From assembly GCA_031259215.1 (NCBI GenBank), contig JAIRLU010000054.1:1-39446 (forward strand): a DNA stretch of 39,446 bases, written 5' to 3'. The position numbers and the translations under genes are program-made. This DNA is from Treponema sp. (GTDB lineage Bacteria > Spirochaetota > Spirochaetia > Treponematales > Breznakiellaceae). Under the pieces are notes generated by a model. It was not told the DNA's origin and ran no database searches. It saw nothing but the letters and a program-made list of their open reading frames with translations. This document shows, piece by piece, positions 12,191 to 33,720 of this stretch (positions are counted from its first letter, which is position 1; the number at the start of each line of letters is the position of its first letter).

Positions 12191-12321
12191 AGAGTTGTTC
12201 GGAAACCTCAGTTTCCGAACAACTTCCGCTTAAAAAACGATAAAAAATGTGGATTTTATTAAGAAATCCGCATTTTTTGGAGACTTGTTCGATAACCAAC
12301 CGGGTTATCGAACAAGTCCAA
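12191..12321 (+). repeat. Three-hairpin dispersed repeat, copy 2
   Basis: First hairpin GTTGTTCGGAAAC-CTCA-GTTTCCGAACAAC, second built on AATGTGGATTT / AAATCCGCATT, third ACTTGTTCGATAACC-AACC-GGGTTATCGAACAAGT. It sits inside the formate dehydrogenase cluster, between two hycB-type genes, and may act as a partial terminator or RNA processing site. Confidence 0.85.
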
Positions 12322-12419
12322 TGACGAGCAGGTTCATACTTTTGCTTGTACGCCCGTGGATTTAGAGAAACCTGCCATAGGGTATGCCTGAAGGGTATTT
12401 GCGGGATACCAGGGAGATT

Positions 12420-12707
12420 CAGGGCTTATCCTGGGGTAGAACGGTTCAGGAGCTTCGCTTAGGTATAAAAGCCGGGGAAGCTCCTGTTCCTTCTGTATAT
12501 GAAGGAGATGTTTCCCTTTAACTGGAGCGGGCGGTGGTCAAGGCGATGGAGAAGATGCAGATACAGCATAGCAATCCAGAAGGGAAAGCCTTTATATGTA
12601 GCCGCAGACGAGCCCTCACATGGTTTATGATGATTGAACGTACCGGGGTGAAGCGCTTATTATGCCGTGGGGCAGTGAGGCGGGCCAAAGCACAGGGGAT
12701 AACCTGA
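12420..12707 (+). pseudogene. Possible fdhD remnant (sulfurtransferase for formate dehydrogenase)
   Basis: One frame, broken by a TAA near 12519, reads RTVQELRLG..., then VYEGDVSL, LERAVVKAMEKM, GKAFICSRRRALTWFM, and RTGVKRLLCRGAVRRAKAQGIT to a stop at 12707. Spacing and wording loosely follow FdhD (an RTG-like segment, ED(V/I)xRHNAVDK, then GRxxxEM...AGIPxLxSRxAPTxxAxxLA...GIT). The HDCR cluster of Acetobacterium woodii has fdhD between hycB genes, which fits the position. The similarity is weak and read by eye; it could be unrelated. Confidence 0.33.
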
Positions 12708-12765
12708 GCGGGCCTTTTAAGGCGGGATTATATGTATAGCTATACCCATAGTGAAGGGATTATTG

Positions 12766-13080
12766 ATGGAAAGGTGGAACATGAATACCGGAGGGACCTT
12801 TGAACCGCTATTGATACGATGTACGGGGTGTATGCAGAATCCCTGTACCCTATCTTGCGGGAGTAATGCGGTAGTTTATATCCGGGGGGATCTGCTATTG
12901 GAGGCTCATAAATGCAGCGTTTGTGAGCGGTTTCAAGAAGTGGCAGGTACCTGTACTGATGGTATACCTCCCTGTATTACCACATGTCATCATTCGGAAG
13001 ACAAAGTTGTGCTTGAAGTCCTGAGTGGAGCACAGAAACGAATAAAAAATGCGGATCTTTTACCGCTGCTGACCTTGTAA
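12766..13080 (+). CDS. Reduced HycB-like ferredoxin (internally deleted, two cluster sets)
   Basis: A 104-residue protein (GTG 12751 and ATG 12781 are other possible starts; ATG 12766 follows GAAGGGA). Cysteines form one complete set CTGCMQNPCTLSC and a second, split set KCSVC...GIPPCITTC, matching the second and fourth sets of full HycB. The N-terminal set is absent. Between LLLEAHK and CSVC the third set, about 40 residues in the neighbouring HycB proteins, is precisely missing. It could be a decayed copy or a compact two-cluster protein. It lies between the remnant and the next full hycB in the same direction. Confidence 0.6.
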   Translation: MERWNMNTGGTFEPLLIRCTGCMQNPCTLSCGSNAVVYIRGDLLLEAHKCSVCERFQEVAGTCTDGIPPCITTCHHSEDKVVLEVLSGAQKRIKNADLLPLLTL

Positions 13081-13192
13081 TGCACTATGTCTTGGACCAA
13101 GGGCTTGTGAGAGAGGAAAGCCCTGTGAAACCCATGGTATCTTTCCGGAACCGTAAAAGATTCCGGATAACCCTTTGAGAAGAGGTATTTTG

Positions 13193-13780
13193 ATGAATGG
13201 AGAGCAATCTTGTTTTGTGTTGGCAGATTTGGAAAAATGCATCGGTTGTAGGGCCTGTGAAGTCGCCTGTTTTGCCGCCCATCAGCCGGGGCAACTAAAA
13301 ACCGTTGGGGCGGTTACCACCCCGGTTATTCCCAATCTGTACCTCACCGTGTCGGAACGGGGCCGTATGCCGGTACAATGTCATCATTGTGAAAATGCGC
13401 CCTGCTTACGTTCTTGTGCAACGGGGGCTATTGAACGCCAGGATGGAACCGTTGTAATCAACCGGAAAAAATGTATTGGTTGCAAGAATTGTGTTATGGC
13501 TTGCCCCTTTGGGGCTATTGCAATTCTGGGGGCTAAGGACATGGAGGGGATACGCGATATTTTTGGCCCTGCCGGTGTACCCCAGGATCAAGGGGTCCTT
13601 CGGTTTGTCCACAAATGCGATCTTTGTACTGGTAAACAGGATGGCCCTGCGTGTGTGGCAATCTGCCCTAATCAGGCATTGCGTTTGGTTGATGCGGCTG
13701 TGGAAGTAAACGACAAAAGAATCAAGGCAACCACGGCGCTGGAAGGCGTATCGGACATCGTAAAACAAGGGAGGCAGTAA
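13193..13780 (+). CDS. hycB: HycB-like four-cluster ferredoxin subunit of the HDCR (second copy)
   Basis: A 195-residue polyferredoxin with four [4Fe-4S] sets: CIGCRACEVAC near residue 17, CHHCENAPCLRSC near 64, CIGCKNCVMACP near 97 and CDLC...CVAICP near 143, plus a longer helical C-terminal tail than the first copy. ATG 13193 follows GAGAAGAGG; 13175 is a weaker in-frame start. It ends 3 bp before the hydA ATG. By position it corresponds to the hydrogenase-proximal HycB of the HDCR. In T. kivui the equivalent subunit has a C-terminal helix used for filament assembly; whether this tail does the same is inference. Confidence 0.92.
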   Translation: MNGEQSCFVLADLEKCIGCRACEVACFAAHQPGQLKTVGAVTTPVIPNLYLTVSERGRMPVQCHHCENAPCLRSCATGAIERQDGTVVINRKKCIGCKNCVMACPFGAIAILGAKDMEGIRDIFGPAGVPQDQGVLRFVHKCDLCTGKQDGPACVAICPNQALRLVDAAVEVNDKRIKATTALEGVSDIVKQGRQ

Positions 13781-13783
13781 ATC

Positions 13784-15172
13784 ATGGCGGTTATTCAAAT
13801 TGATAAAGATATTTGTACCGGATGCCAGGAATGTAGTAAAGTATGTCCGGTATATGCGATTGAAGGTAATCCGCATGAACCCCAGACCATCGTTACCGAG
13901 CGGTGCGTCATGTGCGGACAATGTGTACAGAAGTGCAAGTCGTATATTTCCCTGATTGACCATGGAGTAACGGTTTATGCTCAAAAACGGCAAGAACGGA
14001 ACCTGCCCGATACGGTAACGGAGCCCTTGTTTGCTGCGTATAATGTGAGTCATGTAGAGGAGGTCATCAAAGCATTGCAGGACCCGAATATATTTACTAT
14101 GGTCCAGGCCGCGCCGGCAGTGCGGGTTGGTATTGCCGAAGACTTTGGCTTGCCCCTGGGTACCTTGGCATCGGGAAAAATGGCCGCAGCCTTACGGCGG
14201 CTTGGGTTTAACAAAGTCTATGATACCAATTTCACCGCGGATTTAACCATTATGGAAGAAGGTACCGAATTAGTGAAGCGGGTTACGGAAAAAGGGGTGC
14301 TTCCCATGTTTACCTCCTGTTGTCCAGGGTGGGTGAAATATATGGAAAATAACCATCCTGAACTGACAAAACACCTTTCTTCCTGTAAGAGTCCCCAGCA
14401 AATGGCCGGTGCGGTTTTTAAGACCTATGGAGCAAAACTCAATGGGGTGGATCCGGCTAAGGTATTTACCGTATCGGTTATGCCCTGTACCTGTAAGGCC
14501 TTTGAATGTGACCGGGAAGAGATGAAGGATAGCGGGTATAAAGACGTGGATGTGGTCATTACCACCCGGGAATTGGCGTATATGATTAAAAAGATGGGTA
14601 TTGAGTTCTCTGCACTCCCCGATGAACCCTTTGACCAGCCTTTAGGGGAATATACCGGTGCCGCTACCATCTTTGGGGTTACCGGCGGGGTTATGGAAGC
14701 GGCCATACGCACCGGATATACCCTTATCACCGGCAAGGAACTGAGTGACCGGGATGTGGATATCCTCCCGGTTCGTAGTACTGAAGGATTCCGTACTGCG
14801 GATATTAAGGCCGGGGATCTAACCTTAAAGGTGGGGGTGCTGACCAATTTAAAGAATATCGATCCGATCATCGAGCAACTACAGAACGGTACGTTGAACT
14901 TGCACTTTGTGGAAGTGATGACCTGTCCAGAAGGTTGCGTGAGCGGTGGTGGACAGCCTAAGCTCTTGGTGGACAGTGATAAACCTGCGGCCTATGAAAA
15001 CCGCCGGAAAGCCACCTTTGACCATGATAAGGCGTTGCCTCTGCGGAAGTCCCATGTCAACCCGGCGATCACCCAAATATATAAGGACTTTTTGGAGAAA
15101 CCCAACGGGAAACTCTCCCACAAGCTCTTACATACCAAGTATAAGGGCGGTTCGGCGAGCCATCACGAATGA
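13784..15172 (+). CDS. hydA: [FeFe]-hydrogenase catalytic subunit of the HDCR
   Basis: Hydrogenase of 462 residues that oxidises or makes H2. Two N-terminal [4Fe-4S] sets (C11/14/17/21 and C41/44/47/51) feed the H-cluster domain, which carries TSCCPGW (residues 177-183), MPCTCKAFE (233-241) and EVMTCPEGCVSGGGQP (the last ligand set). Motif 3 differs slightly from the usual MACPGGC. There is no N-terminal [2Fe-2S] domain and no flavin domain, so electrons must pass through the HycB partners, as in the HDCR HydA2. ATG 13784 follows GGGAGGC. The H-cluster maturases HydEFG are not in the window. Confidence 0.95.
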   Translation: MAVIQIDKDICTGCQECSKVCPVYAIEGNPHEPQTIVTERCVMCGQCVQKCKSYISLIDHGVTVYAQKRQERNLPDTVTEPLFAAYNVSHVEEVIKALQDPNIFTMVQAAPAVRVGIAEDFGLPLGTLASGKMAAALRRLGFNKVYDTNFTADLTIMEEGTELVKRVTEKGVLPMFTSCCPGWVKYMENNHPELTKHLSSCKSPQQMAGAVFKTYGAKLNGVDPAKVFTVSVMPCTCKAFECDREEMKDSGYKDVDVVITTRELAYMIKKMGIEFSALPDEPFDQPLGEYTGAATIFGVTGGVMEAAIRTGYTLITGKELSDRDVDILPVRSTEGFRTADIKAGDLTLKVGVLTNLKNIDPIIEQLQNGTLNLHFVEVMTCPEGCVSGGGQPKLLVDSDKPAAYENRRKATFDHDKALPLRKSHVNPAITQIYKDFLEKPNGKLSHKLLHTKYKGGSASHHE

Positions 15173-16618: not shown

Positions 16619-18739
16619 TTAGAGCTTAAACAGGAGTTCTTCGTAACCCGGGAAGGGCCAGGCATTCTTGGCGACTAGTTTCTCCAACCCATCCCCCCGA
16701 ATCCGAACCGCATCCATAGCAGGTCGTACTTTCTCAAAATACGCCTTAGCCTTGGTAAAGGGATCCTCCACTTCCTGAGCCTCTGCCAAAACCATTTCCA
16801 ACTTGGCGGTTTCATCATAGAGTTCTGCCGCAAGCTCAGCAATACGTTTGACCCGTTTCGCCTGGGGTATATTGGTAGCGCCCACAGAGGCCAAAGCAGC
16901 CGCGTCTTGGGCGAGGGTACCTGCATACGTGGTGGCTGCCGGGAATATATAACGTCGAGCCATATCTATGGTAACCCCGGCTTCGATATTTATCTGTTTT
17001 GCATATTTTTCCAGATAAATATGATACCGGCTCTCCATTTCATCTTTGGAGAACACCTGGTGAGCTTCAAAGAGCGCTATGGTTTCGCTTCGGGTAAGCA
17101 CCGAAAGGGCATCTACGGCGTTCCGTACATTGGGGAGCCCCCGCCGTTCCGCTTCCCGGACCCATTCCTCTGCATAACCGTTACCATTGAATACCACCCG
17201 TCGGTGTTTAGCATAGGATTCTTTGATGATAGTCTGAATCGTCTCGTTTTTATTACCCCCTTTCTCAAGCTTATCGGCAAATTCGGACAGTACCTGGGCC
17301 ACTGCCGCATTAAGATAGGTATTGGGAGTAGCAATGGACTGGGAAGATCCCACCATGCGAAACTCAAACTTGTTGCCGGTAAAAGCAAAAGGACTAGTTC
17401 GGTTCCGGTCAGATACGTCTTTCGGCAAGTTGGGCAGGCTCGTAACTCCTAGCTTTATTACCGCCCCTTCTTCGGTTTTAACGCTACTTTTTCCTTCCGC
17501 AATGTTGTCCAAGATTTCCGTTAGCGGTCCGCCAAAGAAAATGGAGACAATCGCTGGGGGTGCTTCATTGGCCCCCAGTCGGTGATCATTGGCAGAAGTA
17601 GCCGCGGAAGCCCGGATTAAGAGGGCATAGCGGTCCACTGCTTCTACCACTGCCGCCGCAAAAAGGAGAAACCGGGCATTAGACTCAGGGTTCGCTCCAG
17701 GATCAAAGAGGTTAATCCCGTCATCAGTAGCTATAGACCAGTTGTTATGCTTCCCAGAACCGTTTATCCCAGCAAAGGGCTTCTCGTGGAGCAAGCCTTC
17801 CATGCCGTGCCTACGGGCCACATTTTTGATGGTTTCCATAACCAATTGGTTCGCATCCACTGCTACGGTGGTATTGGTAAATACCGGGGCAATCTCAAAC
17901 TGGTTGGGAGCTACCTCGTTGTGCTGGGTCTTGGCCGCGATTCCCACTTTCCATAACTCGGTGTTCAGTTCCCGCATGAATCCTGCGACTCGTTCCTTGA
18001 TGGCCCCGAAATAATGATCCTCCATTTCCTGGCCCTTAGCAGGCATAGAACCAAACACGGTCCTGCCGGTAAGGATGAGATCCGGCCGCTGGTCATAGAA
18101 GGCTTTATCCACCAGGAAGTATTCCTGTTCCGGTCCCACCGTGGTGTACACCCGTTTAGAGGTATCATTCCCCAAGGCCCGCAGCACCCGAATCGCCTGT
18201 TTACTCAAGGCATCAATGGACTTAAGCAACGGCACCTTCTTATCCAAAGCCTGGCCGTAGTAACTGATAAAAGCAGTGGGTATGCACAGGGTTGTACCGG
18301 TCTGATCCTGCTTGAGAAAGGCAGGACTGGTAACATCCCAGGCAGTATATCCCCGGGCCTCAAAGGTGGCCCGTAGCCCTCCGGAAGGGAAACTGGATGC
18401 ATCCGGCTCACCCTTGATAAGTTCTTTACCGGAAAACTCCATGAGGACCCGACCGTCCATAGTAGGGGCAATGAAGGAATCGTGCTTCTCCGCGGTAAGC
18501 CCGGTAAGGGGGTGGAACCAGTGGGTATAGTGACTTGCGCCCTTGGCCAAGGCCCAATCCCGCATGGCCGCTGCCACCACTTCCGCCACTTCCAGGGTTA
18601 GTTCCTTTTCCCCTCCCTGAACCGCCAGAATTTCCTTGTAAATATTCTTAGGCAGTCGTTCCCGCATGACTGCATTAGAAAAACAGTTAGAACCATACAA
18701 AGCAGTTACCGGCGTCTTGGTAAAATCAACAATACTCAT
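16619..18739 (-). CDS. glnN: Glutamine synthetase type III
   Basis: Cytoplasmic enzyme that makes glutamine from glutamate, ammonia and ATP. At 706 residues it has the length of the large GSIII class, not the ~450-residue GSI. The GSIII-specific N-terminus (HYTHWFHPLTGLTAEKHDSF) and catalytic-core pieces (TVGPEQEYFLVDKAF, KTQHNEVAPNQFEIAPVF, GINGSGKHNNWSI, NDHRLGANEAPPAIVS) are all present, with a helical C-terminal part. ATG 18739 follows GGGAGGATGA. A promoter-like pair lies about 110 bp upstream. It is followed on the same strand side by glnK and amtB, forming a nitrogen-assimilation neighbourhood. Confidence 0.95.
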   Translation of the reverse strand: MSIVDFTKTPVTALYGSNCFSNAVMRERLPKNIYKEILAVQGGEKELTLEVAEVVAAAMRDWALAKGASHYTHWFHPLTGLTAEKHDSFIAPTMDGRVLMEFSGKELIKGEPDASSFPSGGLRATFEARGYTAWDVTSPAFLKQDQTGTTLCIPTAFISYYGQALDKKVPLLKSIDALSKQAIRVLRALGNDTSKRVYTTVGPEQEYFLVDKAFYDQRPDLILTGRTVFGSMPAKGQEMEDHYFGAIKERVAGFMRELNTELWKVGIAAKTQHNEVAPNQFEIAPVFTNTTVAVDANQLVMETIKNVARRHGMEGLLHEKPFAGINGSGKHNNWSIATDDGINLFDPGANPESNARFLLFAAAVVEAVDRYALLIRASAATSANDHRLGANEAPPAIVSIFFGGPLTEILDNIAEGKSSVKTEEGAVIKLGVTSLPNLPKDVSDRNRTSPFAFTGNKFEFRMVGSSQSIATPNTYLNAAVAQVLSEFADKLEKGGNKNETIQTIIKESYAKHRRVVFNGNGYAEEWVREAERRGLPNVRNAVDALSVLTRSETIALFEAHQVFSKDEMESRYHIYLEKYAKQINIEAGVTIDMARRYIFPAATTYAGTLAQDAAALASVGATNIPQAKRVKRIAELAAELYDETAKLEMVLAEAQEVEDPFTKAKAYFEKVRPAMDAVRIRGDGLEKLVAKNAWPFPGYEELLFKL

Positions 18740-18851
18740 TCATCCTCCCTAATAAAATAAGAAAATACTCCATGGTAATACTAAGCAAAAGCTGTGCCAA
18801 ATACATAAAAGAACCAAACGGCGCTTCTATTGCTCTAGCATAATTGTATCC

Positions 18852-18880
18852 ACTATAAAATACTATAACCCCCTTGTCGA
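18852..18880 (-). promoter_or_regulatory. Likely promoter of glnN
   Basis: On the minus strand TCGACA (18875-18880), a 17-bp spacer and TATAGT (18852-18857), about 113 bp upstream of the glnN ATG. The remaining gap 18881-19188 shows no gene. Confidence 0.5.
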
Positions 18881-19150
18881 GGGCTCCTCCTCCCCTGTCT
18901 AGGACTTGGACATCTCCTTAATATAAGTGAGGCAATTTCAAGATCTGACCCTTGGAACGTGCCTCCCGTAAAAAAATACCACCATCCTTTTTAATCCATA
19001 AAAAGCAAAAGTCCCTTTTTTACCTATACGAGCCCTTTCCCCCTATAAGATAAGAGAATAAGCACCTTTGGAAAGGACAGCCGCAAAAAGAATTATCAAC
19101 CAACCAACCCTGTTATGTATCATGTTACTACAAATAAGTAGGAAGATATC

Positions 19151-19182
19151 GGGAGGGCAGGGTATAGAACCGATACCCTCCC
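19151..19182 (-). terminator. Hairpin just after glnK
   Basis: GGGAGGG can pair with CCCTCCC, or GGGTAT with ATACCC, directly after the glnK stop. No T-run follows on the minus strand, so it may be an mRNA end-stabilising hairpin or a factor-assisted terminator. Confidence 0.35.
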
Positions 19183-19188
19183 AAAGGA

Positions 19189-19530
19189 TTAGCCAATGGC
19201 TATGGCTCCGGTCTCCCCGGTCCGTATCCGGATACATTCCTCAATAGGAAGCACAAAAACCTTTCCATCTCCGATCTCGCCGCTCCGGGCGCCTTTGATG
19301 ATGGCATCCACCGTGGGTTTTACGAAGGTATCATTCACCGCAATTTCAATACGGACCTTCTTTAAAAGGTTGACTTCTATTTCAACCCCCCGGTACTGCT
19401 CGGTATATCCCTTCTGCTGACCGCAGCCCATGGCATTGGTAATTGAAATCTTGTAGACCTCAGCCTTGTACAGTTCCTGCTTAACCTCATTCAACACATG
19501 AGGTTGTATATAGGCAATTATCAATTTCAT
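19189..19530 (-). CDS. glnK: PII nitrogen regulatory protein without Tyr51
   Basis: Trimeric signal protein of 112-113 residues that senses 2-oxoglutarate and ATP/ADP and blocks the ammonium channel. The T-loop reads [25 protein letters not shown]; the B-loop and C-loop wording ([24 protein letters not shown]) is normal. Aligned without gaps to E. coli PII, Tyr46 is kept but position 51, the uridylylation site, is Ile. So it is probably controlled by ligand binding alone. It starts 12 bp after amtB in the same operon (amtB first, the reverse of the usual order) with a GGGGGTGG ribosome site. Confidence 0.92.
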
Positions 19531-19542
19531 TTTTCCACCCCC

Positions 19543-20898
19543 TTACATGTTGCTGAAAATCTGGAAGCCCGAATAGGCTTCGGCCTTGTGTTCAGCCAGA
19601 TCCAGCCCTATGGACTCTTCCTTGGGGCTCACCCGGAGACCCGTTATTGCCTTAATGGTAACGAAAAGGGCCAGACTAGTGAGAGCAGCCCATGCCCCTA
19701 CCGAAAGGATCCCCACCAGTTGTATGCCCAACTGACGGAGTCCGCCTCCGTGAAGAAGTCCGAGCGCCACCCCTTCCACATTACCCCAGATACCAACCGC
19801 TAGGGTACCCCAGATCCCGCAGGTCAGGTGCACTGACGAAGCCCCCACCGGATCATCAACTTTGAGGATTTTATCAATAAATTCAACCGATAGGACCACC
19901 AGGACCCCGCCGATAAGACCGATAATGATGGACGCTCCGGGGGAAACCACCGCGCAGGGAGCGGTAATAGAAACAAGTCCCGCAAGAAGGCCGTTCAAGG
20001 TCATGGAAGCATCGGGCTTCTTGAACCAAGACCAGGAGAAGAAGAGAGCACTCACCGCGCCGGCTGCGGCGGCCAAGGTAGTGGTCACGCAAACCCGGGC
20101 GATAGCAAGACCGCTCCAAATCCCACCTTCGCCCACGGTGGCGATGCCCGTGGACGCGCCGTTAAAGCCGAACCATCCGAAGAAAAGCAGCAGAACGCCC
20201 AAGGCCGCGTAGGGAATATTGTGGCCCGGGACGGCCTTCACCGATATTTTACCGTCGGGACCTTTCACGTATTTCCCGATACGGGGCCCAAGAACGATTG
20301 CGCCCATAAGAGCGGCCCAGCCGCCCACGGAGTGGACTACCGTAGAACCGGCAAAATCGTGGAATCCCAGATTGGCAAGCCAGCCGCCGCCCCATACCCA
20401 ATGGCCTGAAATGGGGTAGATAAAGGCCGAAATAAAGCAGGTATAAATCAGGTAGGATTTAAACTGAGTCCGTTCTGCCATAGCCCCCGACACAATGGTT
20501 GCCGCGGTGGCGGCAAAAACCACCTGAAAAAACCAGCTTTTGTAGAAGTTCCCACTGTCAAAATCCAGAGACATGGGCCCGTTAAAGAACTGATCGGTCC
20601 CGATGAGGCCGCCCAGGGCATCCGTCCCGTACATGAATCCCCATCCCAGAGCCCAATACACAATAGCCCCAAAACAGAAATCCATTACGTTTTTCATGGT
20701 GATGTTGGTAGCGTTTTTTGCCCGGGTTAAGCCGGTCTCAACTAACGCAAAGCCCGCCTGCATGATAAAGACCAGGATAGCCCCGATAAAAAGCCAGACC
20801 ATATCAAGCGAAAATCCCAGAGATTCAATACCTTCCTGCGCAAAGACAGAAGCGCCTACAAGTACAAGTAGAGCTAGACAGAATAGTTTCTTCCGCAC
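19543..20898 (-). CDS. amtB: Ammonium transporter
   Basis: Inner-membrane ammonium channel of 451 residues with a signal-like N-terminus (LFCLALLVLVGASVFAQ) and eleven or so membrane helices. The twin pore histidines are visible in FHDFAGSTVVHSVGG and SSVHLTCGIWG. The GTG start at 20898 follows GAGGAGG at good spacing. The C-terminal tail (VSPKEESIGLDLAEHKAEAY) is the part that contacts PII proteins, and glnK follows directly. Together with glnN it imports and fixes ammonia. Confidence 0.95.
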   Translation of the reverse strand: MRKKLFCLALLVLVGASVFAQEGIESLGFSLDMVWLFIGAILVFIMQAGFALVETGLTRAKNATNITMKNVMDFCFGAIVYWALGWGFMYGTDALGGLIGTDQFFNGPMSLDFDSGNFYKSWFFQVVFAATAATIVSGAMAERTQFKSYLIYTCFISAFIYPISGHWVWGGGWLANLGFHDFAGSTVVHSVGGWAALMGAIVLGPRIGKYVKGPDGKISVKAVPGHNIPYAALGVLLLFFGWFGFNGASTGIATVGEGGIWSGLAIARVCVTTTLAAAAGAVSALFFSWSWFKKPDASMTLNGLLAGLVSITAPCAVVSPGASIIIGLIGGVLVVLSVEFIDKILKVDDPVGASSVHLTCGIWGTLAVGIWGNVEGVALGLLHGGGLRQLGIQLVGILSVGAWAALTSLALFVTIKAITGLRVSPKEESIGLDLAEHKAEAYSGFQIFSNM

Positions 20899-21652: not shown

Positions 21653-24124
21653 TTAGGGATACAAAAACTGTTCTATGTGCCGGAGTATGGTTTTAAAGTC
21701 CTGAAAACTGGTTCTGGTTTTAGGTAGGGAACGAAGGAAGTACGGGCCGTACCGTTTCCAAAGAACCCGCCCATCTAGGACCACCACCACTCCATGATCG
21801 CTGGAACGGCGCATGAGCCTGCCGAAACCTTGCTTGAACTTCATCACCGACTCAGGGAGGGATAGTTCCATGAACGGATTAGCCCCCTGTTTTTGTAGGG
21901 CTTCACAACGGGCTTCGAATACCGGTTCATGGGGGGACCTGAAAGGCAGACGGCAGAGGACCACCAGGCGCAGGGTATCGCCGGGGGCATCCACCCCTTC
22001 CCAGAAAGAATCCGTGGCAAAGAGGACGCTCTGCTCATCCTCAAGGAAGGTCTTCAAAAGCCGGTTCCGATCATCATCTCCCTGTTTAAGACAACGGATT
22101 CCCTCCGACTCGAGGACGGGAACTGCGGCAGTATAGGCGCTCCTGAGCGCCTCATAGGAGGTAAAGAGCAAGAGGGCAGACCCCCCTGCACATTGAACGA
22201 GGGCCAGTGAAGCCTGATCCACAAAGGCTTGGTAAGGGTCTTGGTCAGGCAAAGGGGCGTCTTTGGGTATGGCCAAGAGCACTGAGGAGGAATAGGGGAA
22301 GGGAGATGGAAACTGCCCGGTAAGCACCGGCCGTTCGCGGACCAGACTCAGCCCGCAGCGTGCATTCCAATAGGCAAAGGAATCAGCCACCGTCAAGGTA
22401 GCGGATAGGCAGATCACCGTCTTATGAGGCTCAAAGAGGGCGTCCTTCAGGGAGGGAGCCACATCAATGGGGCTTACGGTAAATACTGCCCAGGGCCCTT
22501 TGGAGGGGCTGGTACTGCTACTGAAATGCCGTTCTATCCACAGGACCTCTGCGGTACGGTCCTGGAATTCGATAAAAGCCGTACAAATCGTCCCGATGGT
22601 ATCAAGCCGACGGAGGATGGCTCTGACTTCCCAGTCCACGGCAGTATCTTCATCCTGAGGGTCCAACTGATCCAGCATTTCTCGGATACGGCCGGTAAAG
22701 GTAAGGAGGTGACCACGGAGCGCGGTAAACTGAGGAACCAGAACCGCCTGGATACTCCTTTCCCGGGAGGGAGTCAAACGGAAAACCCCTTCGGTACGGC
22801 AGAGTTCCAGGGCCGAACGATCCAGCGTATCTGCTGTATCCCGGATGAGCCCTATGGCAGCTTCAAGCGCTTCAAGACGCGGTTCAGCAGATACCAGGGC
22901 TGCCAAGGTACGTAAAAAGCCCAAGGGGGTTCCTCCGCGGGTGTGGCGATACAGCCGTCCCAAGTGGCGATTGATCCCAAGACGGCTAAAGTTCTGGGAA
23001 AAAAATGCCGTAGCTGCTCCCTCCAGGGTATGGGCCTCGTCGAGGATGATCCGGCTGTAAGGGGGAAGCACCACCGTATGGCTGTACCCGGCCCCTTCAT
23101 GCCGAGCAGCGAGATCTGCAAAGAGCAGGTGATGGTTTACCACCAGAATCCGGGCATCTGCTGATGCTTTACGCAGGGCAAGGACGAAACAGGCTTCCCG
23201 TTCAGGGCAGCGCATACCCATACAGCAATCCGCTTCAGCACAGATTCGGGACCACAGCCCTTCTTTGGGCATGAAGGAAAGGTCTGAACGGCTTCCGGTC
23301 TTGGTGGTCTCTGTCCAGGCACGGATGGCGTGGAGGTCTTCGTACTCTCCATCAACCAAGAGACCCTGCTCCTGGAGGGCCTCTTCAAGCCGACGACGGC
23401 ACAGGTAATGCCCCCGTCCTTTAATGAGAACAACTTTGAGCTTCTTACCCTTTTTTTCTCGGTTCTCGATGGCTGAAGCCACCAGGGGTATGTCTTTTTC
23501 ATAAAGCTGCTGCTGCAAGGTGATGGTAGCCGTGGAAATCACCATTCGTTCATCATTGGTAAGGGCATACGTCAGGGCAGGGAGGAGGTAGGCGAAGGAT
23601 TTTCCTACTCCGGTTCCTGCTTCTGCTGCCACCAGGGCATCGTCGTTAAAACCTTGGATAATGAGCCGCATAAGCTCAAGCTGGGAATGACGATGCTCGT
23701 AAGCAGGAAGTTTTTTAGCTATGGCCCCTCCCCCTTCCAGGGCGGCCATGATGGCCGAGGCATTCAGCTTCTTATGGATCTGTTTCTTGATGGGTTCGGT
23801 TACTACATAGACCTGCTCCACCTGGTTATCCACGATGAAGCAGCCCACCCCTACTTGGGCAGCCTGGGCTGCGATGGCCAGATCCGCATCGCTGGGGATA
23901 AGCAGGCCTGAAGGGTGGTTGTGGATAAAGACATCTGCGGTTTCGAGTCGTGTATCCACGGCGAGGACCTTATCTTCCCTGCCCCTGGCGCTCACTTCAA
24001 TGGTGGCAACCAGACCCTTCTTGTCTAGGAAGCCCAGGGCAAAGACCTCATTCCCGTGGGCATCCTGGATTTCCGCTTGTAGTTGGGCGATACATGGTTC
24101 TGAGAACCGTTTTATAGCCTGCAT
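21653..24124 (-). CDS. DinG/XPD-type helicase with N-terminal RadC-like JAMM domain
   Basis: About 823 residues. The N-terminal ~110 residues are a RadC/JAB-type domain with an apparently intact metal site (Glu26, HNHPSG at 68-73, Asp81). The rest is a superfamily 2 helicase of the DinG/Rad3 kind: Walker A EAGTGVGKS (168-176), a four-cysteine iron-sulfur patch (YLCRRR, then DCCMGMRCPEREACF), VVNHHLLFADL, LDEAHTLE, and the late motifs FATDSFWEGVDAPG and GFGRLMRRSSDHG. Such helicases unwind forked or R-loop DNA 5'-3'. ATG 24124 follows GGAAG; a GTG at 24142 is also possible. The fusion suggests a joint role in replication-fork repair; the substrate of the JAMM part is unknown. Confidence 0.9.
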   Translation of the reverse strand: MQAIKRFSEPCIAQLQAEIQDAHGNEVFALGFLDKKGLVATIEVSARGREDKVLAVDTRLETADVFIHNHPSGLLIPSDADLAIAAQAAQVGVGCFIVDNQVEQVYVVTEPIKKQIHKKLNASAIMAALEGGGAIAKKLPAYEHRHSQLELMRLIIQGFNDDALVAAEAGTGVGKSFAYLLPALTYALTNDERMVISTATITLQQQLYEKDIPLVASAIENREKKGKKLKVVLIKGRGHYLCRRRLEEALQEQGLLVDGEYEDLHAIRAWTETTKTGSRSDLSFMPKEGLWSRICAEADCCMGMRCPEREACFVLALRKASADARILVVNHHLLFADLAARHEGAGYSHTVVLPPYSRIILDEAHTLEGAATAFFSQNFSRLGINRHLGRLYRHTRGGTPLGFLRTLAALVSAEPRLEALEAAIGLIRDTADTLDRSALELCRTEGVFRLTPSRERSIQAVLVPQFTALRGHLLTFTGRIREMLDQLDPQDEDTAVDWEVRAILRRLDTIGTICTAFIEFQDRTAEVLWIERHFSSSTSPSKGPWAVFTVSPIDVAPSLKDALFEPHKTVICLSATLTVADSFAYWNARCGLSLVRERPVLTGQFPSPFPYSSSVLLAIPKDAPLPDQDPYQAFVDQASLALVQCAGGSALLLFTSYEALRSAYTAAVPVLESEGIRCLKQGDDDRNRLLKTFLEDEQSVLFATDSFWEGVDAPGDTLRLVVLCRLPFRSPHEPVFEARCEALQKQGANPFMELSLPESVMKFKQGFGRLMRRSSDHGVVVVLDGRVLWKRYGPYFLRSLPKTRTSFQDFKTILRHIEQFLYP

Positions 24125-24401
24125 AGGATTGCTTCCGAACACGCCAGGTGTTTATGAGGCCCACTGTTTGCATACATGATTGAAGATACTATGGATGAAA
24201 AGGCTCTCGCAAGTCTTTTTTCGTAACCCTGCACGGGGTCAACAGGCTGCATTTAAAAGACTTGAAAATAACCCCACATCAAAATCTAAACTTGACTCAC
24301 AAAAATAGTAAGGGGTATTTGGAGAAGCATTGGTTCGGAGATTGCTCGTTTCCCTGCAACCCTCGTAAGGCAAAATCCCTGGTCCATCCCTACTATGTTC
24401 T

Positions 24402-24860
24402 ATGAGACCATTACGTTTGCTCAAACAAGGAGTATGGTACGAAATCCACACCCGTATCAACAACCGGGAACCCCTGTTCCGTAAGCCTCGGGCTTTGGGG
24501 CTCTTTGCCAAGGTCTTCCATGAGACGAAAGGGCGGTTTGTTTTCGAGATTCGGGGCTTGCGTCTTGGGGACGACAGGCTTACGTTTTATATCAAGCCTG
24601 CGGAGGGCATGGAACTTCCGGCTATCATGAAATGGCTGAAACAGGTGTTTGCCCAGCGGTACAACCGTGCCCAAGCACGGGAAGGGCATATCTGGTGAGA
24701 CCGGTATAGGTCGCGGATACTTGAAGGGGAACCGTCTGAAGCGGAGCTTGGGGGGAAAGAGGATATGAGTATAAGGGTCAGACCCCCTTATAGGGAAGCG
24801 GAGACCAAAACCGCTTTTCTACTCCTGTTCCCGCTTCCCCTTGTCCCGACACCCGGATAA
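24402..24860 (+). pseudogene. RAYT/IS200-like Y1 transposase relative, TGA-interrupted and without HUH motif
   Basis: The first frame (24402-24698) reads GVWYEIHTRINNREPLF, FVFEIRGLRLGDDRLTFYIKP, AIMKWLKQVFAQRYNR and GHIW, the order of REP-associated tyrosine transposases. The place of the catalytic HUH (usually NHVHLL) is occupied by DDRLTFYI, so it cannot cut DNA. A TGA follows GHIW, where relatives have Gly-Asp-Arg-Tyr-Trp. Past the TGA the frame continues DRYRSRILEGEPSEAELGG to 24860, clearly the family's next motif. So the gene is a nonsense-broken, catalytically dead relative. No ribosome site is evident. Dead HUH relatives may be retained as host proteins, but this copy is broken. Confidence 0.6.
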
Positions 24861-25307: not shown

Positions 25308-27380
25308 CTACGTACTGCTTTTTTTCCCTACGGCCCGTCGTTCTTGTATGACCTGCTTGAAAAGGGCATTGGCGTCAATTTTCTCATCAACTCCAAACTG
25401 GGGTATAATCCCTTCATCATTCACGCTCCGGAAGAGGGGTTCGTCATTATGCTCGTATGCCCAACTGTTGTAGCTATTGACCAAATGATCCAGCACGGTG
25501 GTAACCGCTAAGGTAAAGTATATCAGGGATGCGTTGTTTCTCTTCTTCGCCCCTAACAGCATATTGAGGCGCAGGGAAAGGGGATTAGATACCTGGAAAA
25601 CATAGGACTTCCAGGGGTTCTCGATCCCCTCGCAGCTACCTTCGCCTTCCGTCCATCCAGCCTTCTTGGTCACCAAGTCGATTTTAGCTGCTACAGTGCT
25701 AAGACAGTGACGCAATCTTCTCACCTCAGGATACACTGCGGTTATGCTACTTTTCTTAAAAGGGGAAGTTGATAAATTTTCAATTTTATAATAGGGAAGA
25801 TAATAAAGCCGCTTAATCCACTGCAATTCATTGTATATACGTTTCGCATAGGATGATGTCCTGGATTCTACCGAGGTATCTAAAAGGCGGCAATACTCTT
25901 GTAAACGGTTCAGGTATTCCTTGTTAAAGACAACTTCAAAGTCACGCCAATTCTCTAAGATATCTTCCATGATTTGCCCAATCGGCTCTGAAGACTCACC
26001 GGCTCCAAAAATCGTGCTAAAGGATACATACCGAAGTCCCGTAAACAACTCCTCTAAAATACGCATTAATATCACCACCTGCAGGAGCGGATCCCGAGGG
26101 GCAATCAGTTCATACCCTTTCCCTAAATCAAAAACTTTTGCAAAATACGCATAGAGATCAGGATACGTCGAGAGTTTATCCCAACCAGCCTTGGGAAACA
26201 GGGATTCCAGGATTCTCAGGCCCCGCTCAACCGCTTTTCGTTCCGATTCATCCTCTGCTTGCTGGGCCACGGCTTTATTATCCGTTTCCTGGGTATTTTC
26301 TGACTTCTCTTCTTGATGAGCTTCAGTGCTGTTTTCGTCACTTAGCTGAATATTGGGAAGAATGCGATCTTCCTCACTCACCCCGAGAAAAGCCATGATG
26401 CGATTTTTTCGTGCTGAAAAGAATTGCTCATAAGGTATCCATCTATCTGATACTAATTTCAGAAAGAGGGGATATAAGAGGTACTTGATATCCTTGCGTA
26501 TGATCGTATACGCGTCTAGGGCAGCACGAATAAGCTTCTGATACTTCTCCTTCGCTTCTATAGGATTTTCTATGTATAAAAACTTATACAACAACTTATA
26601 CGCTTCGGTAATATGAAAGTCTGTGGATAATTCTTCTAAGATAAAGAGGGGTCTATAAATATCCCGCACGATATCTGCACAATCAATGGTTCTAACATGC
26701 CGTGGATGGCTCTGTATTCGAGCCATGACATTGGTAATCCGTTCAATATTCCAATATCGAATGGTATCCAACACGGTGAATACAAATAAGGACATTTTTT
26801 TGAGCTGTTCGTTACGACGGAGATTATTCCGGGGAAACATGGTCCGGGTAGAAATCACCAAGAGTTCTATCTGTTTATAATATTCGTTCAGTCTTTGGGT
26901 AACAAACAAGGGACTTACCAAATCAGGAGCTTCCTTAAAGAAACTGAACATGGACACTAAGACCAGTCTAAGGGACTTTATATCAAATTCCGCTTGCGCC
27001 GCATATCGATCCATCTTGAGCCGCTCACTATAGCTTGCCTTAACCGGCACTTGCGGATCATCCCCGGTATCCGCTGCTTTATTGCCCACCTTTTTTTTTC
27101 TGGTACTTTCGTTAACCGCCTTGGGCGCGGAAACTGATTCTACCCGTGCTCTTTGACTTTGGGAAGTATCGCTCCGAGTATTCGATGATCCAGAATGAAT
27201 ACGGGGGGATCCAGACCTTCTCGGGACGCTTACCTTCGGGTTCGAGGACTTTTCAGTCCCCACTTCTCCACCCAGCATTTTAGCCAGCCGTTTGGCTTCC
27301 TGTTCATCAATAACCCCTAATTTGTCCCGGACCCGGTCTAATTCACCTGGAGCGTATATTGCCTTGTTTTGCTTTGCCAT
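25308..27380 (-). CDS. Hypothetical protein, 690 residues, not recognised
   Basis: I do not recognise this protein. It starts with a charged segment (LDRVRDKLGVIDEQEAKRLAKMLGG), then a low-complexity Ser/Arg/Lys-rich stretch (about residues 35-115), a long mostly helical region (about 120-345), an acidic Glu/Gln/Ser-rich linker (about 350-385) and a second helical region to the end. No signal peptide, membrane segment or nucleotide-binding motif was seen, so it is probably cytoplasmic. ATG 27380 follows AGAAGG at long spacing; TATACT lies just upstream. The long uninterrupted frame and ordinary codon use argue that it is real. It precedes the repeat at 25188 and follows the DUF2804 gene on the same strand, 67 bp apart. 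Confidence 0.75.
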   Translation of the reverse strand: MAKQNKAIYAPGELDRVRDKLGVIDEQEAKRLAKMLGGEVGTEKSSNPKVSVPRRSGSPRIHSGSSNTRSDTSQSQRARVESVSAPKAVNESTRKKKVGNKAADTGDDPQVPVKASYSERLKMDRYAAQAEFDIKSLRLVLVSMFSFFKEAPDLVSPLFVTQRLNEYYKQIELLVISTRTMFPRNNLRRNEQLKKMSLFVFTVLDTIRYWNIERITNVMARIQSHPRHVRTIDCADIVRDIYRPLFILEELSTDFHITEAYKLLYKFLYIENPIEAKEKYQKLIRAALDAYTIIRKDIKYLLYPLFLKLVSDRWIPYEQFFSARKNRIMAFLGVSEEDRILPNIQLSDENSTEAHQEEKSENTQETDNKAVAQQAEDESERKAVERGLRILESLFPKAGWDKLSTYPDLYAYFAKVFDLGKGYELIAPRDPLLQVVILMRILEELFTGLRYVSFSTIFGAGESSEPIGQIMEDILENWRDFEVVFNKEYLNRLQEYCRLLDTSVESRTSSYAKRIYNELQWIKRLYYLPYYKIENLSTSPFKKSSITAVYPEVRRLRHCLSTVAAKIDLVTKKAGWTEGEGSCEGIENPWKSYVFQVSNPLSLRLNMLLGAKKRNNASLIYFTLAVTTVLDHLVNSYNSWAYEHNDEPLFRSVNDEGIIPQFGVDEKIDANALFKQVIQERRAVGKKSST

Positions 27381-28756: not shown

Positions 28757-29635
28757 TTAGACCGACTTCCCCTTCTTCTCAATACCGCAGGATAGGGTAT
28801 AGAGGACTAAGGCCAGGGCTGCTGGGACGCCTAAGAGGGCCGTAGCAGGAAGTCCTCCCCAGCCTTGCATACCCAAGCCCATATATTCGGCTAAGGCAAA
28901 TACCAAGGCGGCCAGCATGGTTCCTCCCACACGGCGGAAACCCAGGTATACCCCGGCTAAGGCTATCCAGCCCCGTCCAGCCACACCCCCCGGGGCATAG
29001 ACCCCTACCCTAAAGGTCAGGGCTGCACCGGCTAAGGCGGCAAGAAAAGTCGCCGCAGCCCAGGCCCCTGCGTGGTATCGGTCGGGGCGAATCCCCCGTT
29101 CCTGAGCCGCCTCTGGGGAAGCCCCCGCGGCCCGTAAGCGCAAGCCCAGGGAACTTCGGCTGATGATGAGGCTGGCAATGACGCTGCTCACCCAGGCCAC
29201 ATACACAAAGGGAAGCTGCCCTGAAAGCAGAACTCCCAAAACCGGGATATCCTCCACCAGAGGAAGCGATACCGGACCAGGTATGGATATGCCGGAATTC
29301 CGTAAAACTCCCTTGGTACCAAACCAGGTAATAGAAAGCGCATCGGTGATACCTCCGGCAGCGAGATTCAGGGCAAGCCCTACAATAAAGGGATTGGCTC
29401 CAGTAAACCTGACAAACCGAGCCAAGGCCCAGCCGCAGAGGGCCGCCGTCAGGGCGGTGATACCGGAACCCAAGAAAACCGACCCCGTCTGGATCGCGAT
29501 AATCCAGGCAAAGAAAGCCCCTAAGGTCATAAAGCCTTCGATGAATATCCCCAGGGCCCCGGATAACTCGGTACATAGGGCACCTAAACTTGCCAGCATG
29601 AGCGGGGCAGCTACGGTACATATACTGGAAATCAT
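28757..29635 (-). CDS. rfuD: Riboflavin ABC transporter permease (second)
   Basis: Inner-membrane permease of 292 residues with about eight hydrophobic segments, of the BmpA/nucleoside-type ABC family (YufQ-like). Motifs include GALGIFIEGFMTLGAFFAW and GLRLRAAGASPEAAQERGI, the cytoplasmic loop facing the ATPase. Its start overlaps the end of the first permease by 4 bp. The FMN riboswitch in front of the operon points to riboflavin and not nucleosides as the substrate. In Treponema pallidum the same four-gene set, RfuABCD, imports riboflavin. Confidence 0.85.
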   Translation of the reverse strand: MISSICTVAAPLMLASLGALCTELSGALGIFIEGFMTLGAFFAWIIAIQTGSVFLGSGITALTAALCGWALARFVRFTGANPFIVGLALNLAAGGITDALSITWFGTKGVLRNSGISIPGPVSLPLVEDIPVLGVLLSGQLPFVYVAWVSSVIASLIISRSSLGLRLRAAGASPEAAQERGIRPDRYHAGAWAAATFLAALAGAALTFRVGVYAPGGVAGRGWIALAGVYLGFRRVGGTMLAALVFALAEYMGLGMQGWGGLPATALLGVPAALALVLYTLSCGIEKKGKSV

Positions 29636-30693
29636 ACCGAGGTCCTGCGCTTTACGAGAGGAGGGGTAACCCGAACCGTGGCGAGGAGCAACACCAGGGC
29701 CTGAATGAATGCGGCCGTTTCAAAGTTGAGTCCCGTGGCCAACAGCGCGGCATCAGAACCGGCCTTGAGGGCGCCGTAGACTAAGGCCGCAGGGATCAAC
29801 GCCAGGGGGCGGTTCCGGGCAATGAGGGCCACCGCGATGGAGGACCAGCCCAGGCCACCGGGAAAGCCCAGGTGGCAACGACCGTAGGTTCCTGCCACCG
29901 CAAAAAAACCGGTAAGCCCCCCCAAGGCTCCTGCAATACTCATGGCCGGTATCCAGTAGGCCTCTGGCTCAATACCGCCATACCGGGCAAAAGCCGGGGC
30001 TGCGCCGGCGATGTTAAACCGATATCCCCAGATGGTCCTATTGATAAAAAGGTGCCCCGCCATGATGAGGAGCAGGGCGAACATGAAGGAAATCGAGAGG
30101 CTTGAGGGAGGCAAGAGGCGAAGGAGTAGCCCCTGTTCAGCGATGGGCGCCATGGCCAAGAGATTTCCCTTTGGATCCCGTAAGGGCCCTGCAATGAGGT
30201 AATCCACTACGGGCGTAATGGCCTGGGTAAGCAGGAAGGAGCTGATAAGCTCATGGGCGCCAAACCCCTTCTTGAGGAGACCTGCCAGAGCCCCCAAAGC
30301 ACCTCCGATGGCCAAAGCCATAAGCCCTGCAAGGCCCAAGGCTCCCCATCCCAGGAAACCCTCCCCTTTGAGCAGTACCATGGATGCGACCAAACCCCCA
30401 AGATAAATCTGACCTTCCCCTCCTAGATTGAAACAGCCTCCCCGGAATGCGATGGTCATGCCCAAAGACGCGGTGAGCAAGAGCCCTATATAATCCAGGG
30501 TATTTCCCAGAAACCAAGGGGATGACCAGGGACCCAGGAAAAAGGCGCGGATGGTTTTTGCGGGAACCGGTGCATTGAACCCCATGATGAGTAGGATCAA
30601 GAGGATCGCCCCCCCCAGGGCAATCAAGGCCCCAAAAACCGGTCCGGGGATGAGTAGCCGGTATCCCTTTGGGGGTGGCTCATACTGCCTCAT
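29632..30693 (-). CDS. rfuC: Riboflavin ABC transporter permease (first)
   Basis: Inner-membrane permease of 353 residues, YufP-like, with about nine hydrophobic segments and the conserved GGCFNLGGEGQIYLGG and YRFNIAGAAPAFARYGGIEPE loops. ATG 30693 follows GGAGGG at good spacing and lies inside the end of the ATPase gene (14-nt overlap); an open frame extends further upstream, but only inside the ATPase gene. It pairs with RfuD to make the membrane channel of the riboflavin importer. Confidence 0.86.
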   Translation of the reverse strand: MRQYEPPPKGYRLLIPGPVFGALIALGGAILLILLIMGFNAPVPAKTIRAFFLGPWSSPWFLGNTLDYIGLLLTASLGMTIAFRGGCFNLGGEGQIYLGGLVASMVLLKGEGFLGWGALGLAGLMALAIGGALGALAGLLKKGFGAHELISSFLLTQAITPVVDYLIAGPLRDPKGNLLAMAPIAEQGLLLRLLPPSSLSISFMFALLLIMAGHLFINRTIWGYRFNIAGAAPAFARYGGIEPEAYWIPAMSIAGALGGLTGFFAVAGTYGRCHLGFPGGLGWSSIAVALIARNRPLALIPAALVYGALKAGSDAALLATGLNFETAAFIQALVLLLATVRVTPPLVKRRTSV

Positions 30694-32341
30694 GGACTGA
30701 GCCCTCCTGAATACTACCCACCATGGCCTGGCCAATGCGTGTTTTGTATACATCCATAGGCAGGATTCCCTTGTTACAGGGATCCAGGGTAATGTGTGCA
30801 GAAAATGCACCGTTCCGTACTACCAAAATGGTATCCGATACGGCTACCAACTCCTCCACATCGGAGGAAAAGAGGAGCACCCCCCTCCCAGGTTTAACAT
30901 ACCGGCGCAGTTCCTCTCTCAGGCGTTCCCGGTTTTTTCGATCCAAACCCCAGCCCGGTTCTGCCAAAATAAGGAGGGAGGTCTTTTCCGCCAATTCCCG
31001 GGCCAGTAGGATCCGCTGCAGCATACCCCCGGAAAAAGCATGGGCTCTGGTTTTAAAAGACCCTGCAACCTGGGCCTGGCCCATGATGCGGGCAGCCCAA
31101 GAATCGAGAAACCCTTGTTCCATAATGCCCCATTTTCCCAAAAGCCCCTTTCGGGAACGGGGATGGGCGTGAATGATAATGCTGTCTTGCAGGGGCAGTT
31201 GGGGAGCTAGGGCGCTGCCGGTTCTGTCTGCACTCAAGTAGGCCCCTCCAGCCTCACGGAAGGTATGGATCCCCTTCCCCGCCAGTTCCCGGCCGTGGAG
31301 CCTTATGGTTCCCCCGGAGGGCGTAAGAAAGCCACTCAAGGCTAATTCCAGGGTTTCAAGCCCACTGTCCCGAACTCCGGCAATTCCAAGGATGGTACCT
31401 GGAGAGAGTTTTAAGTCGATCTGTCGTATGAAGGGTCTCCCCGGGACTTCTACAGAAAGCCCTTGCACGACCAGAAGGGGTTCTGAGGATATTCCCCTAC
31501 GAGGAGGAGGCAGCGATCGGGTATGGGAACTATCCGCACCGAGAGTCCTGTCCTTTACCGGCCTGCTTTCCTTATGAGGATCGATACCGAACATAAGCGC
31601 CTGTACGGTTTCATTCTGCAGGGACCGGGCGGATTGGCTCGCCTGGGTTTTTCCCTTCCGCAAAACCGTTACCCGGTCGGCAATCGCCATGGTTTCTTCC
31701 AGTTTATGCGAGATGAGCGCCAACCCTTTTCCTTCTGTTCTGAGTAGCCTAAAAAGCGCAAAAAGCCCTTCGGTTTCTCTGAGGGTAAGGACCGCAGTGG
31801 GTTCGTCGAAGATGAGGTACTGGGCCTGCCGGAGCAAGAGGGCCAGGACCGCGGTTTTCTGCCGCTGGCTTACGGTGAGATCCCTGGTATCCCGCTCAAG
31901 GGGCAGTTCAAAACCCCAGCGCTCTGAAAGGTCCCGGACCTGATTACGGGCCTTTCGAGGGTGCAAAAACCCAGGGAACCCTGGTTCTGCACCGAGTATA
32001 CACGCTTCCCAGACCCTAAACCCCGGGGTTACATGGGGATGCTGACGGACCATACCGATACCCACGGCCAAGGCATCGGCAGGGCTTGTAAAGCGCTGGG
32101 CCTTCATATCTACCCATATCCTACCGGCAGTGGGGGCCATATATCCCGCCATGATGTGCATCAGGGTGGATTTCCCTGCACCGTTTTCTCCGAGGAGGGC
32201 GTGTATCTCAGCCCTGTGGAGATCAAAATCGGTAGTATCCAGGGCATGAACCCCATTAACAGGAAAATATTTCTGTATACCCTGCAACTGTACACCTGTT
32301 CCCGGTACCCCTTGTAAGGGTATCGCCCTTGTACATACCAT
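30680..32341 (-). CDS. rfuB: Riboflavin ABC transporter, double ATPase subunit
   Basis: A 553-residue protein with two ABC domains (YufO/MglA-like). The N-terminal domain has an intact Walker A (GENGAGKST, residues 51-59), Walker B DEPTAVLT and an atypical signature (LTVSQRQK). The C-terminal domain has a degenerate Walker A (GVRDSGLE instead of GxxGxGKS) but a normal signature (FSGGMLQR) and LAEPGWGLD. Such asymmetry is common in this family. The start ATG 32341 is 8 bp past the rfuA stop, with GGAGG overlapping the rfuA end, so translation is coupled. Confidence 0.87.
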   Translation of the reverse strand: MVCTRAIPLQGVPGTGVQLQGIQKYFPVNGVHALDTTDFDLHRAEIHALLGENGAGKSTLMHIMAGYMAPTAGRIWVDMKAQRFTSPADALAVGIGMVRQHPHVTPGFRVWEACILGAEPGFPGFLHPRKARNQVRDLSERWGFELPLERDTRDLTVSQRQKTAVLALLLRQAQYLIFDEPTAVLTLRETEGLFALFRLLRTEGKGLALISHKLEETMAIADRVTVLRKGKTQASQSARSLQNETVQALMFGIDPHKESRPVKDRTLGADSSHTRSLPPPRRGISSEPLLVVQGLSVEVPGRPFIRQIDLKLSPGTILGIAGVRDSGLETLELALSGFLTPSGGTIRLHGRELAGKGIHTFREAGGAYLSADRTGSALAPQLPLQDSIIIHAHPRSRKGLLGKWGIMEQGFLDSWAARIMGQAQVAGSFKTRAHAFSGGMLQRILLARELAEKTSLLILAEPGWGLDRKNRERLREELRRYVKPGRGVLLFSSDVEELVAVSDTILVVRNGAFSAHITLDPCNKGILPMDVYKTRIGQAMVGSIQEGSVHEAV

Positions 32342-32348
32342 GAACGCC

Positions 32349-33434
32349 TCATTCCTCCAACTGCAAGACCCCTGAACGGATCTGTTCTATCAAGATCCGC
32401 TGCTTTTCCCGGATAGGGGCGCTTACGGAAGCCTGATAATCTGAATCCGCCTCAATAAAATCAACGTATCCTTCGGCGACTCCTAAAAGCTCCGCCTTAC
32501 CAAAGGGAAGGGTGCCATCCAAGAACCGGATGGTTTGTTCATAGGCAGCCTTATCTTGGTACACTACCGCGCTACCTACCACCGTACCAGGCCGTACCCC
32601 GTAGCCGTTAGTATCAAACCAGACCACTTTGGCCCCGGCTTCAAAGGCCGCCTGAACCACCCCCTCGTTGGCTCCTCCGGCAATCGTGAGGATTACCTTT
32701 ACCCCTCCCCGTATCATGTCCGCGGCAAGCTCCGCACCTTTACCCGCATCAAACCAGTTCCCCACTACTCGAAAATCTACGGTACACTTCGGATCTACCT
32801 GCTGCGCTCCCTCCCGGTACCCTGGCAGTATCACCTCGTTCATGGCAGGGTATTCCTGACCTGCCACTAAGCCAACCCGAATGCCCGGACTGCTTTCGTG
32901 CCCGGCTTCTTTTGCCACCAGGGCCGCGATATGCCCCGCCATATATGCCTGTTCCCGTTGCTTATACCGCAGGGTGTAGATCTGGGGGTTTCCTGTAAGC
33001 GCTCCATCCAAAAGGAGAAACCGCTGTTTTGGAAATTTGGCGGATACTGAAGCGGCAATGGCAGGAAGGGATGGATTTGAAGATACGATAAGATCGTAGC
33101 TCCCTGAGGCTGCCAAGGCAGTGATCCGACTTTCCCATTCGGCTTGGTTAAACCCACCTTCAATAACCGTAACGGTAATCTTGCGCTGGGAGGTACTTTT
33201 TTCTGCAGCCCCCTGTTTGACCCCTTCTGCCAACATCTCATAGATGGGACTTCCCGACATGACTCCAGGAATGAATACCGCGATAGAAGGATGGAGTCCC
33301 CGGTCTCCGGATCCTTTTGTGGATGCATCGTTGCTTCCCAGGCCAAACCCCTTGCTACCGCCAACCCATAGCAGCAGCGAAAAAACCAGCATGATTCGCG
33401 GCATACCCCGGTATTTCCACGCGTGTTGTTTCAT
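32349..33434 (-). CDS. rfuA: Riboflavin-binding BMP-family periplasmic protein
   Basis: Binding protein of 361 residues of the basic-membrane-protein family (RfuA/PnrA fold). Motifs include VFIPGVMSGSPIYEMLAEGVKQGA, DLIVSSNPSL, LRYKQREQAYMAGHIAALV and WFDTNGYG. ATG 33434 follows CCGGAGGG; the longer frame to 33527 would run back through the terminator. The first ~30 residues form a signal peptide (RIMLVFSLLLWVGG), but there is no lipobox cysteine, unusual for spirochete binding proteins, which are normally lipidated. First gene of rfuABCD, behind an FMN riboswitch, which makes riboflavin the likely ligand. Confidence 0.85.
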   Translation of the reverse strand: MKQHAWKYRGMPRIMLVFSLLLWVGGSKGFGLGSNDASTKGSGDRGLHPSIAVFIPGVMSGSPIYEMLAEGVKQGAAEKSTSQRKITVTVIEGGFNQAEWESRITALAASGSYDLIVSSNPSLPAIAASVSAKFPKQRFLLLDGALTGNPQIYTLRYKQREQAYMAGHIAALVAKEAGHESSPGIRVGLVAGQEYPAMNEVILPGYREGAQQVDPKCTVDFRVVGNWFDAGKGAELAADMIRGGVKVILTIAGGANEGVVQAAFEAGAKVVWFDTNGYGVRPGTVVGSAVVYQDKAAYEQTIRFLDGTLPFGKAELLGVAEGYVDFIEADSDYQASVSAPIREKQRILIEQIRSGVLQLEE

Positions 33435-33463
33435 AAAAACTTCCCTCCGGTTACTTAGGGGTA

Positions 33464-33491
33464 ATAAAAAACCCCGGATGAAATCCAGGGT
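33464..33491 (-). terminator. Intrinsic terminator of the riboswitch leader
   Basis: On the minus strand CCCTGGAT-TTC-ATCCGGGG followed by TTTTTTATT: an 8-bp stem with one G-T pair, a 3-nt loop and a good T-run, between the riboswitch and the rfuA start. This is the arrangement of FMN riboswitches that stop transcription when FMN is plentiful. Confidence 0.8.
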
Positions 33492-33551
33492 ATAGGTGAA
33501 GAGGCAAGGCTTCCGAAACCTTCTCATGGTTCATGGGAATCACGAAAGCTC

Positions 33552-33713: not shown

Positions 33714-33720
33714 TACCTTC

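Follow-up and report, generated by a model that had tools for sequence, protein, structure and literature searches.

A RadC-like JAB domain fused to an iron-sulfur DinG/YoaA-type helicase in Spirochaetota

The locus and the fused gene

We analysed a contig of 39,446 nt (JAIRLU010000054.1, assembly GCA_031259215.1), hereafter the window, from Treponema sp. (Breznakiellaceae), a termite-gut spirochaete. In this window, a single gene encodes a JAB/JAMM domain at the N-terminus, followed by a complete iron-sulfur DinG/YoaA-type helicase (Table 1). The reading frame on the minus strand is open from a GTG at 24142, and its stop codon ends at 21653. Because a GGAAG Shine-Dalgarno-like stretch lies about 7–8 bases upstream of the ATG at 24124 and the alignment of most relatives starts at this residue, we regarded the ATG as the better start, in agreement with the gene end given in an earlier sequence-only reading of this DNA. 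Residues are numbered from the ATG (823 aa) unless the 829-aa numbering from the GTG is indicated; the two are offset by 6 residues.

Table 1 Features of the window discussed in the text
Feature	Position	Strand	Description or basis
RadC-like DinG gene	21653..24124	-	823 aa, ATG start; AlphaFold2 mean pLDDT 88.7
N-terminal JAB/JAMM (RadC-like) domain, residues 1–120	23765..24124	-	Pfam, AlphaFold2, Foldseek, ligand survey
DinG/YoaA-type XPD-like helicase core, including FeS cysteines	21656..23743	-	Profile and Foldseek matches
Leader with GGAAG Shine-Dalgarno-like sequence	24125..24145	-	Precedes the ATG; sequence reading
Molybdopterin oxidoreductase, then [FeFe] hydrogenase	9291..15172	+	Possibly a formate-hydrogen system
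Type III glutamine synthetase, P-II protein, ammonium transporter	16619..20898	-	Nitrogen assimilation cluster
Short IS200-like (Y1_Tnp) transposase ORF	24402..24698	+	Perhaps a fragment
690-aa protein	25308..27380	-	No Pfam match
BMP/PnrA-type lipoprotein, ABC ATPase, two permeases	28757..33527		
FMN riboswitch	33549..33715	-	97.8 bits

No conserved neighbours or operon partner that include the window gene were found, and the adjoining genes are not DNA repair genes. The nitrogen assimilation cluster lies just downstream of the helicase gene, and the transposase ORF just upstream of it on the opposite strand. Further along the window, the FMN riboswitch stands directly upstream of the lipoprotein and transporter genes, an arrangement resembling an RfuABCD-type operon for riboflavin uptake.

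A YoaA-like helicase and a divergent JAB domain

The helicase part was identified by a Helicase_C_2 match (E 8.7e-43 in the whole protein), and the best structural match of the predicted model in Foldseek was the E. coli DinG-ssDNA complex (6FWR, E 1.8e-41). Its motifs, Walker A GTGVGKS, DEAH, SAT and QGFGR, showed no or almost no variation in 110 homologues, and the cysteines C248, C307, C312 and C318 (829-aa numbering) were intact in all 168 homologues collected. These data bear out the four helicase cysteines and the iron-sulfur DinG helicase of the earlier reading as regards cluster and motor, but the family needs amending: in the profile search the YoaA model scored 513.7 bits and the DinG models 340–450 bits, which places the helicase closer to YoaA than to DinG by sequence. 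The score remained under the 680-bit cut-off of the YoaA equivalog model NF053712. The DnaQ/DinG models aligned only from profile position 216–240 onward, that is, with the helicase part, so no DnaQ exonuclease domain is present. HolC, the E. coli protein by which YoaA is recruited (PMC11981726), was found in 0 of 59 relatives, while the E. coli and Caulobacter control genomes did match. The predicted model terminates in a helix (residues 810–821), a candidate for the C-terminal alpha7 helix of YoaA. By homology, the protein would be a fork/R-loop helicase.

The N-terminal part was predicted with a mean pLDDT of 90.4 by AlphaFold2, and Foldseek placed RadC (2QLC, E 5.5e-5) at the top of its matches, followed by AfJAMM, AMSH, Rpn11 and PfJAMM1. 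The Pfam RadC family matched the whole protein at 25.6 bits (cut-off 22.1) and the domain alone at 32.1 bits, and all 55 diverse fused domains that were scanned had it as their best family. With RadC as the best PDB match of the predicted fold and with conservation throughout the phylum (see below), the fusion is not a product of chance. The metal set consists of E26, H68, H70, S78 and D81 (E32, H74, H76, S84 and D87 in the 829-aa numbering), and the fused domain thereby keeps the E, HNHP(SG), S and D residues that form the JAMM site of RadC proper. In 18 stand-alone RadCs from the same and related spirochaete genomes, E, HNHPSG, S and D were invariant, as were three further motifs, GxxN, HPRE and LDH. 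The latter three were missing from the fused domains in the alignment of JAB-bearing homologues. These comparisons indicate that the fused domain is, in sequence, a divergent, RadC-like JAB rather than RadC proper; the RadC-type fusion described earlier thus stands as a fusion, and the assignment to RadC itself is weakened.

Most of the same genomes, with or without the fusion, also have a separate gene for a true RadC, among them the genome of the window. This coexistence rules out the fused JAB as a substitute for RadC and, together with the differing motifs, suggests that the two probably do different jobs. It is accordingly quite improbable that the fused JAB runs the same reaction as stand-alone RadC and that the fusion reports directly on RadC function, despite the uniform Pfam assignment and a profile-profile probability of 97.8% to true RadC over 69 columns. 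Having lost the RadC motifs and coexisting with a separately encoded true RadC, the fusion, which had been offered as a functional hint, can inform on RadC only indirectly.

Conservation, distribution and loss of the JAB domain

The homologue set comprised 168 non-redundant proteins from Spirochaetota, most of the termite-gut sequences coming from metagenome-assembled genomes. Of these, 144 carried the JAB domain, excluding one (L119) that the script had counted with the domain and that inspection showed to be JAB-less. The full E/H/H/S/D set was kept in 142 of the 144. In one exception (L063), from a single metagenome-assembled genome, the first histidine is replaced by arginine; the other (L199) is a Treponema-group copy with a decaying JAB domain that has lost the glutamate and the first histidine, a natural damaged-site version. 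E26 and S78, kept in 143/145 and 144/145 alignment rows, respectively, were as conserved as the ligands. The metal residues had been described as intact, with the proviso that their loss in most relatives would point to a structural role only; the survey across spirochaetes confirmed the site and found damage in just these two copies.

The mean pairwise identity was 0.44 for the JAB part and 0.46 for the helicase, and in 17 close pairs dN/dS ranged over 0.03–0.31 and 0.05–0.23, respectively, so purifying selection acts on the two parts to a similar degree. Ligand retention, identity and dN/dS together indicate that the domain is clearly constrained, above all in its catalytic set. Since the metal site is almost perfectly preserved across the phylum, the JAB domain probably functions as an enzyme and not as a scaffold alone.

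The order was represented by 194 genomes, of which nearly all were more than 90% complete; a manual count found the fused-type domain in about 134 and missing from 60. The scores were sharply bimodal, nearly all fused copies having E values below about 1e-24 and stand-alone RadC values of about 1e-9. No free-standing fused-type domain was found in these genomes, save for copies truncated at contig ends or broken by a frameshift. In one homologue (L026, genome G028) the JAB and the helicase lie in two frames, with a frameshift near residue 96–102 that reflects an assembly error or decay. In a genome of the same genus (G007, L051), only protein residues 7–61 were found, and the adjacent sequence that was retrieved has no helicase part.

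A phylum-wide search recovered the full-length fusion in deep-branching families as well, and JAB-less helicases in several groups. In a tree built from the helicase alone, JAB-bearing proteins occurred on all deep branches, 21 homologues lacked the JAB domain entirely with the helicase core intact, and parsimony required 6 changes for JAB presence. The fusion therefore looks ancestral in Spirochaetota, and at least six losses of the domain appear to have occurred, in Treponema groups from termite guts and in others of Treponema; the exact number is soft because the tree was built quickly and contains some long branches. Loss was mostly all-or-none: the JAB-less proteins start at the domain boundary (about residue 118–124) with the motor intact, as expected of clean removal of the whole domain, and the decaying Treponema-group copy described above is the only partly decayed one. 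Coupling of JAB loss to RadC loss was not seen, one genome (G020) excepted.

We also looked for a trace of the domain interface in helicase columns that changed after JAB loss. Of 144 conserved columns, 27 deviated in at least one JAB-less lineage, compared with 10 in matched controls; none deviated in more than 3 of 8 groups, and no clear signal emerged. A phage or plasmid origin was likewise considered and rejected. Among the matches listed, those from phages and plasmids cover the helicase alone, and the RadC-DinG fusion was found at 0 of 67 RadC-like viral loci. One of these 67 holds a neighbour version of the pairing: on a viral contig (L256, 3994–6874) a true RadC gene precedes a 580-aa DinG/XPD-type helicase by about 650 bases on the same strand.

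Possible reactions and comparison with known systems

The reading that we favour, with a probability of about one half, is that this RadC-like DinG combines an ATP-driven iron-sulfur XPD/DinG-type helicase with a catalytically competent, zinc-dependent JAB domain acting on the exposed strand or on adducts. The helicase would load on ssDNA at forks, flaps or DNA-RNA hybrids and unwind, presumably in the 5' to 3' direction of its family. The JAB domain occupies the N-terminal position taken by a DnaQ-type exonuclease in the DinG proteins of Gram-positive bacteria. As part of genome maintenance, it would hydrolyse a bond either in the strand that has been exposed or in something attached to that strand. 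Here we infer the zinc, the hydrolase activity, the nucleic acid substrate and the maintenance role. The retention of the ligands in a domain whose pairs average only about 44% identity supports a hydrolase, as do the dN/dS values, the mostly all-or-none loss, the lack of intact free-standing copies, the closeness of the fold to RadC and then to JAMM enzymes, and the positional equivalence to nucleases argued in PMC5512222; the dispensability of the domain in several lineages and the uninformative gene neighbourhood count against it, as does the known chemistry of JAB enzymes, all of which cut peptide or isopeptide bonds according to PMC5512222 and PMC11981726.

More tentatively, the JAB domain may be a nuclease or nucleotide hydrolase, dependent on zinc, acting on the strand that the DinG/YoaA-type motor unwinds. 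It would then be, to our knowledge, the first JAB fold shown to have a nucleic-acid chemistry, and this activity would account for an ancestral repair enzyme of spirochaetes that can do without HolC. It is somewhat unlikely that the domain is instead a metallopeptidase for a protein met by the helicase, be it one bound to DNA, its own fusion partner or a ubiquitin-like modifier. Its metal set is identical to that of the JAMM deubiquitinases, several peptidases follow directly behind RadC in the Foldseek search, and the characterised JAB enzymes are peptidases (PMC5512222); but RadC-type JABs are argued in the same paper to be without the groove for a ubiquitin tail, and in the neighbourhood no dedicated ubiquitin-like partner gene adjoins the helicase gene.

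A structural or recruitment module, contacting ssDNA, SSB or a polymerase and holding zinc for folding only, is less likely still. Repeated JAB loss leaves an apparently functional helicase, and a YoaA-like helicase whose 59 relatives all miss HolC would need another recruiter. MPN- folds without ligands are, however, common among JAB relatives, and ligand damage was confined here to the two copies; a structural zinc would not require the non-ligand catalytic glutamate E26 or S78, whose retention disfavours this role. We retain the hydrolase acting on the exposed strand or its adducts as the working model. Of the bacterial proteins that lack a known reaction, RadC and its JAB relatives rank with the most widespread, and the fusion offers a tractable enzyme in which the motor supplies likely substrates, a natural cut boundary lies at about residue 118–120, and natural JAB-less and ligand-damaged homologues serve as built-in controls.

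Several known systems resemble the window protein. Stand-alone RadC (PF04002; PDB 2QLC) has the JAB fold and the E...HNHPSG...S..D pattern in common with the fused domain and differs in carrying GxxN, HPRE and LDH. YoaA (NF053712) provides the best-scoring helicase model, yet the cut-off is not reached and its partner HolC is missing. ExoDinG (S. aureus DinG, PDB 8ZEF/9II8) likewise joins a DinG helicase to an N-terminal hydrolase domain, which is a DnaQ exonuclease there and a JAB here. The same domain pair as in the window protein occurs in the RadC fusions to DinG/RAD3-like helicases noted by Iyer and colleagues (PMC5512222), who, seeing nucleases at the equivalent position in related fusions, proposed a nucleic acid-processing role for RadC-type JABs; their passages on these fusions do not give a survey of metal ligands or domain loss.

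The closest system is the "RadC-like DinG", a named subgroup in section 3.8 of Cheng 2025 (PMC11981726) with an example from Desulfuromonas soudanensis. As described there, it was modelled with zinc, DALI gave proteases and not nucleases, HolC is absent, and research on the subgroup is stated as nil. Both it and the window protein have an N-terminal RadC-like domain with an E, H, H, D site, a YoaA-like helicase with an FeS domain and no HolC, and we found no architectural difference from that description. The main text of that paper does not name spirochaetes, and the window member comes from a termite-gut Treponema-type spirochaete; our genome-collection scan returned spirochaetes only, and the distribution beyond Spirochaetota is taken from the literature. 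The fusion and the nuclease hypothesis (PMC5512222) and the subgroup name (PMC11981726) are thus already published, and the window protein adds a new member to the subgroup. Our additions are a survey of the metal ligands, an estimate of selection, the finding of repeated clean loss and a comparison of RadC motifs.
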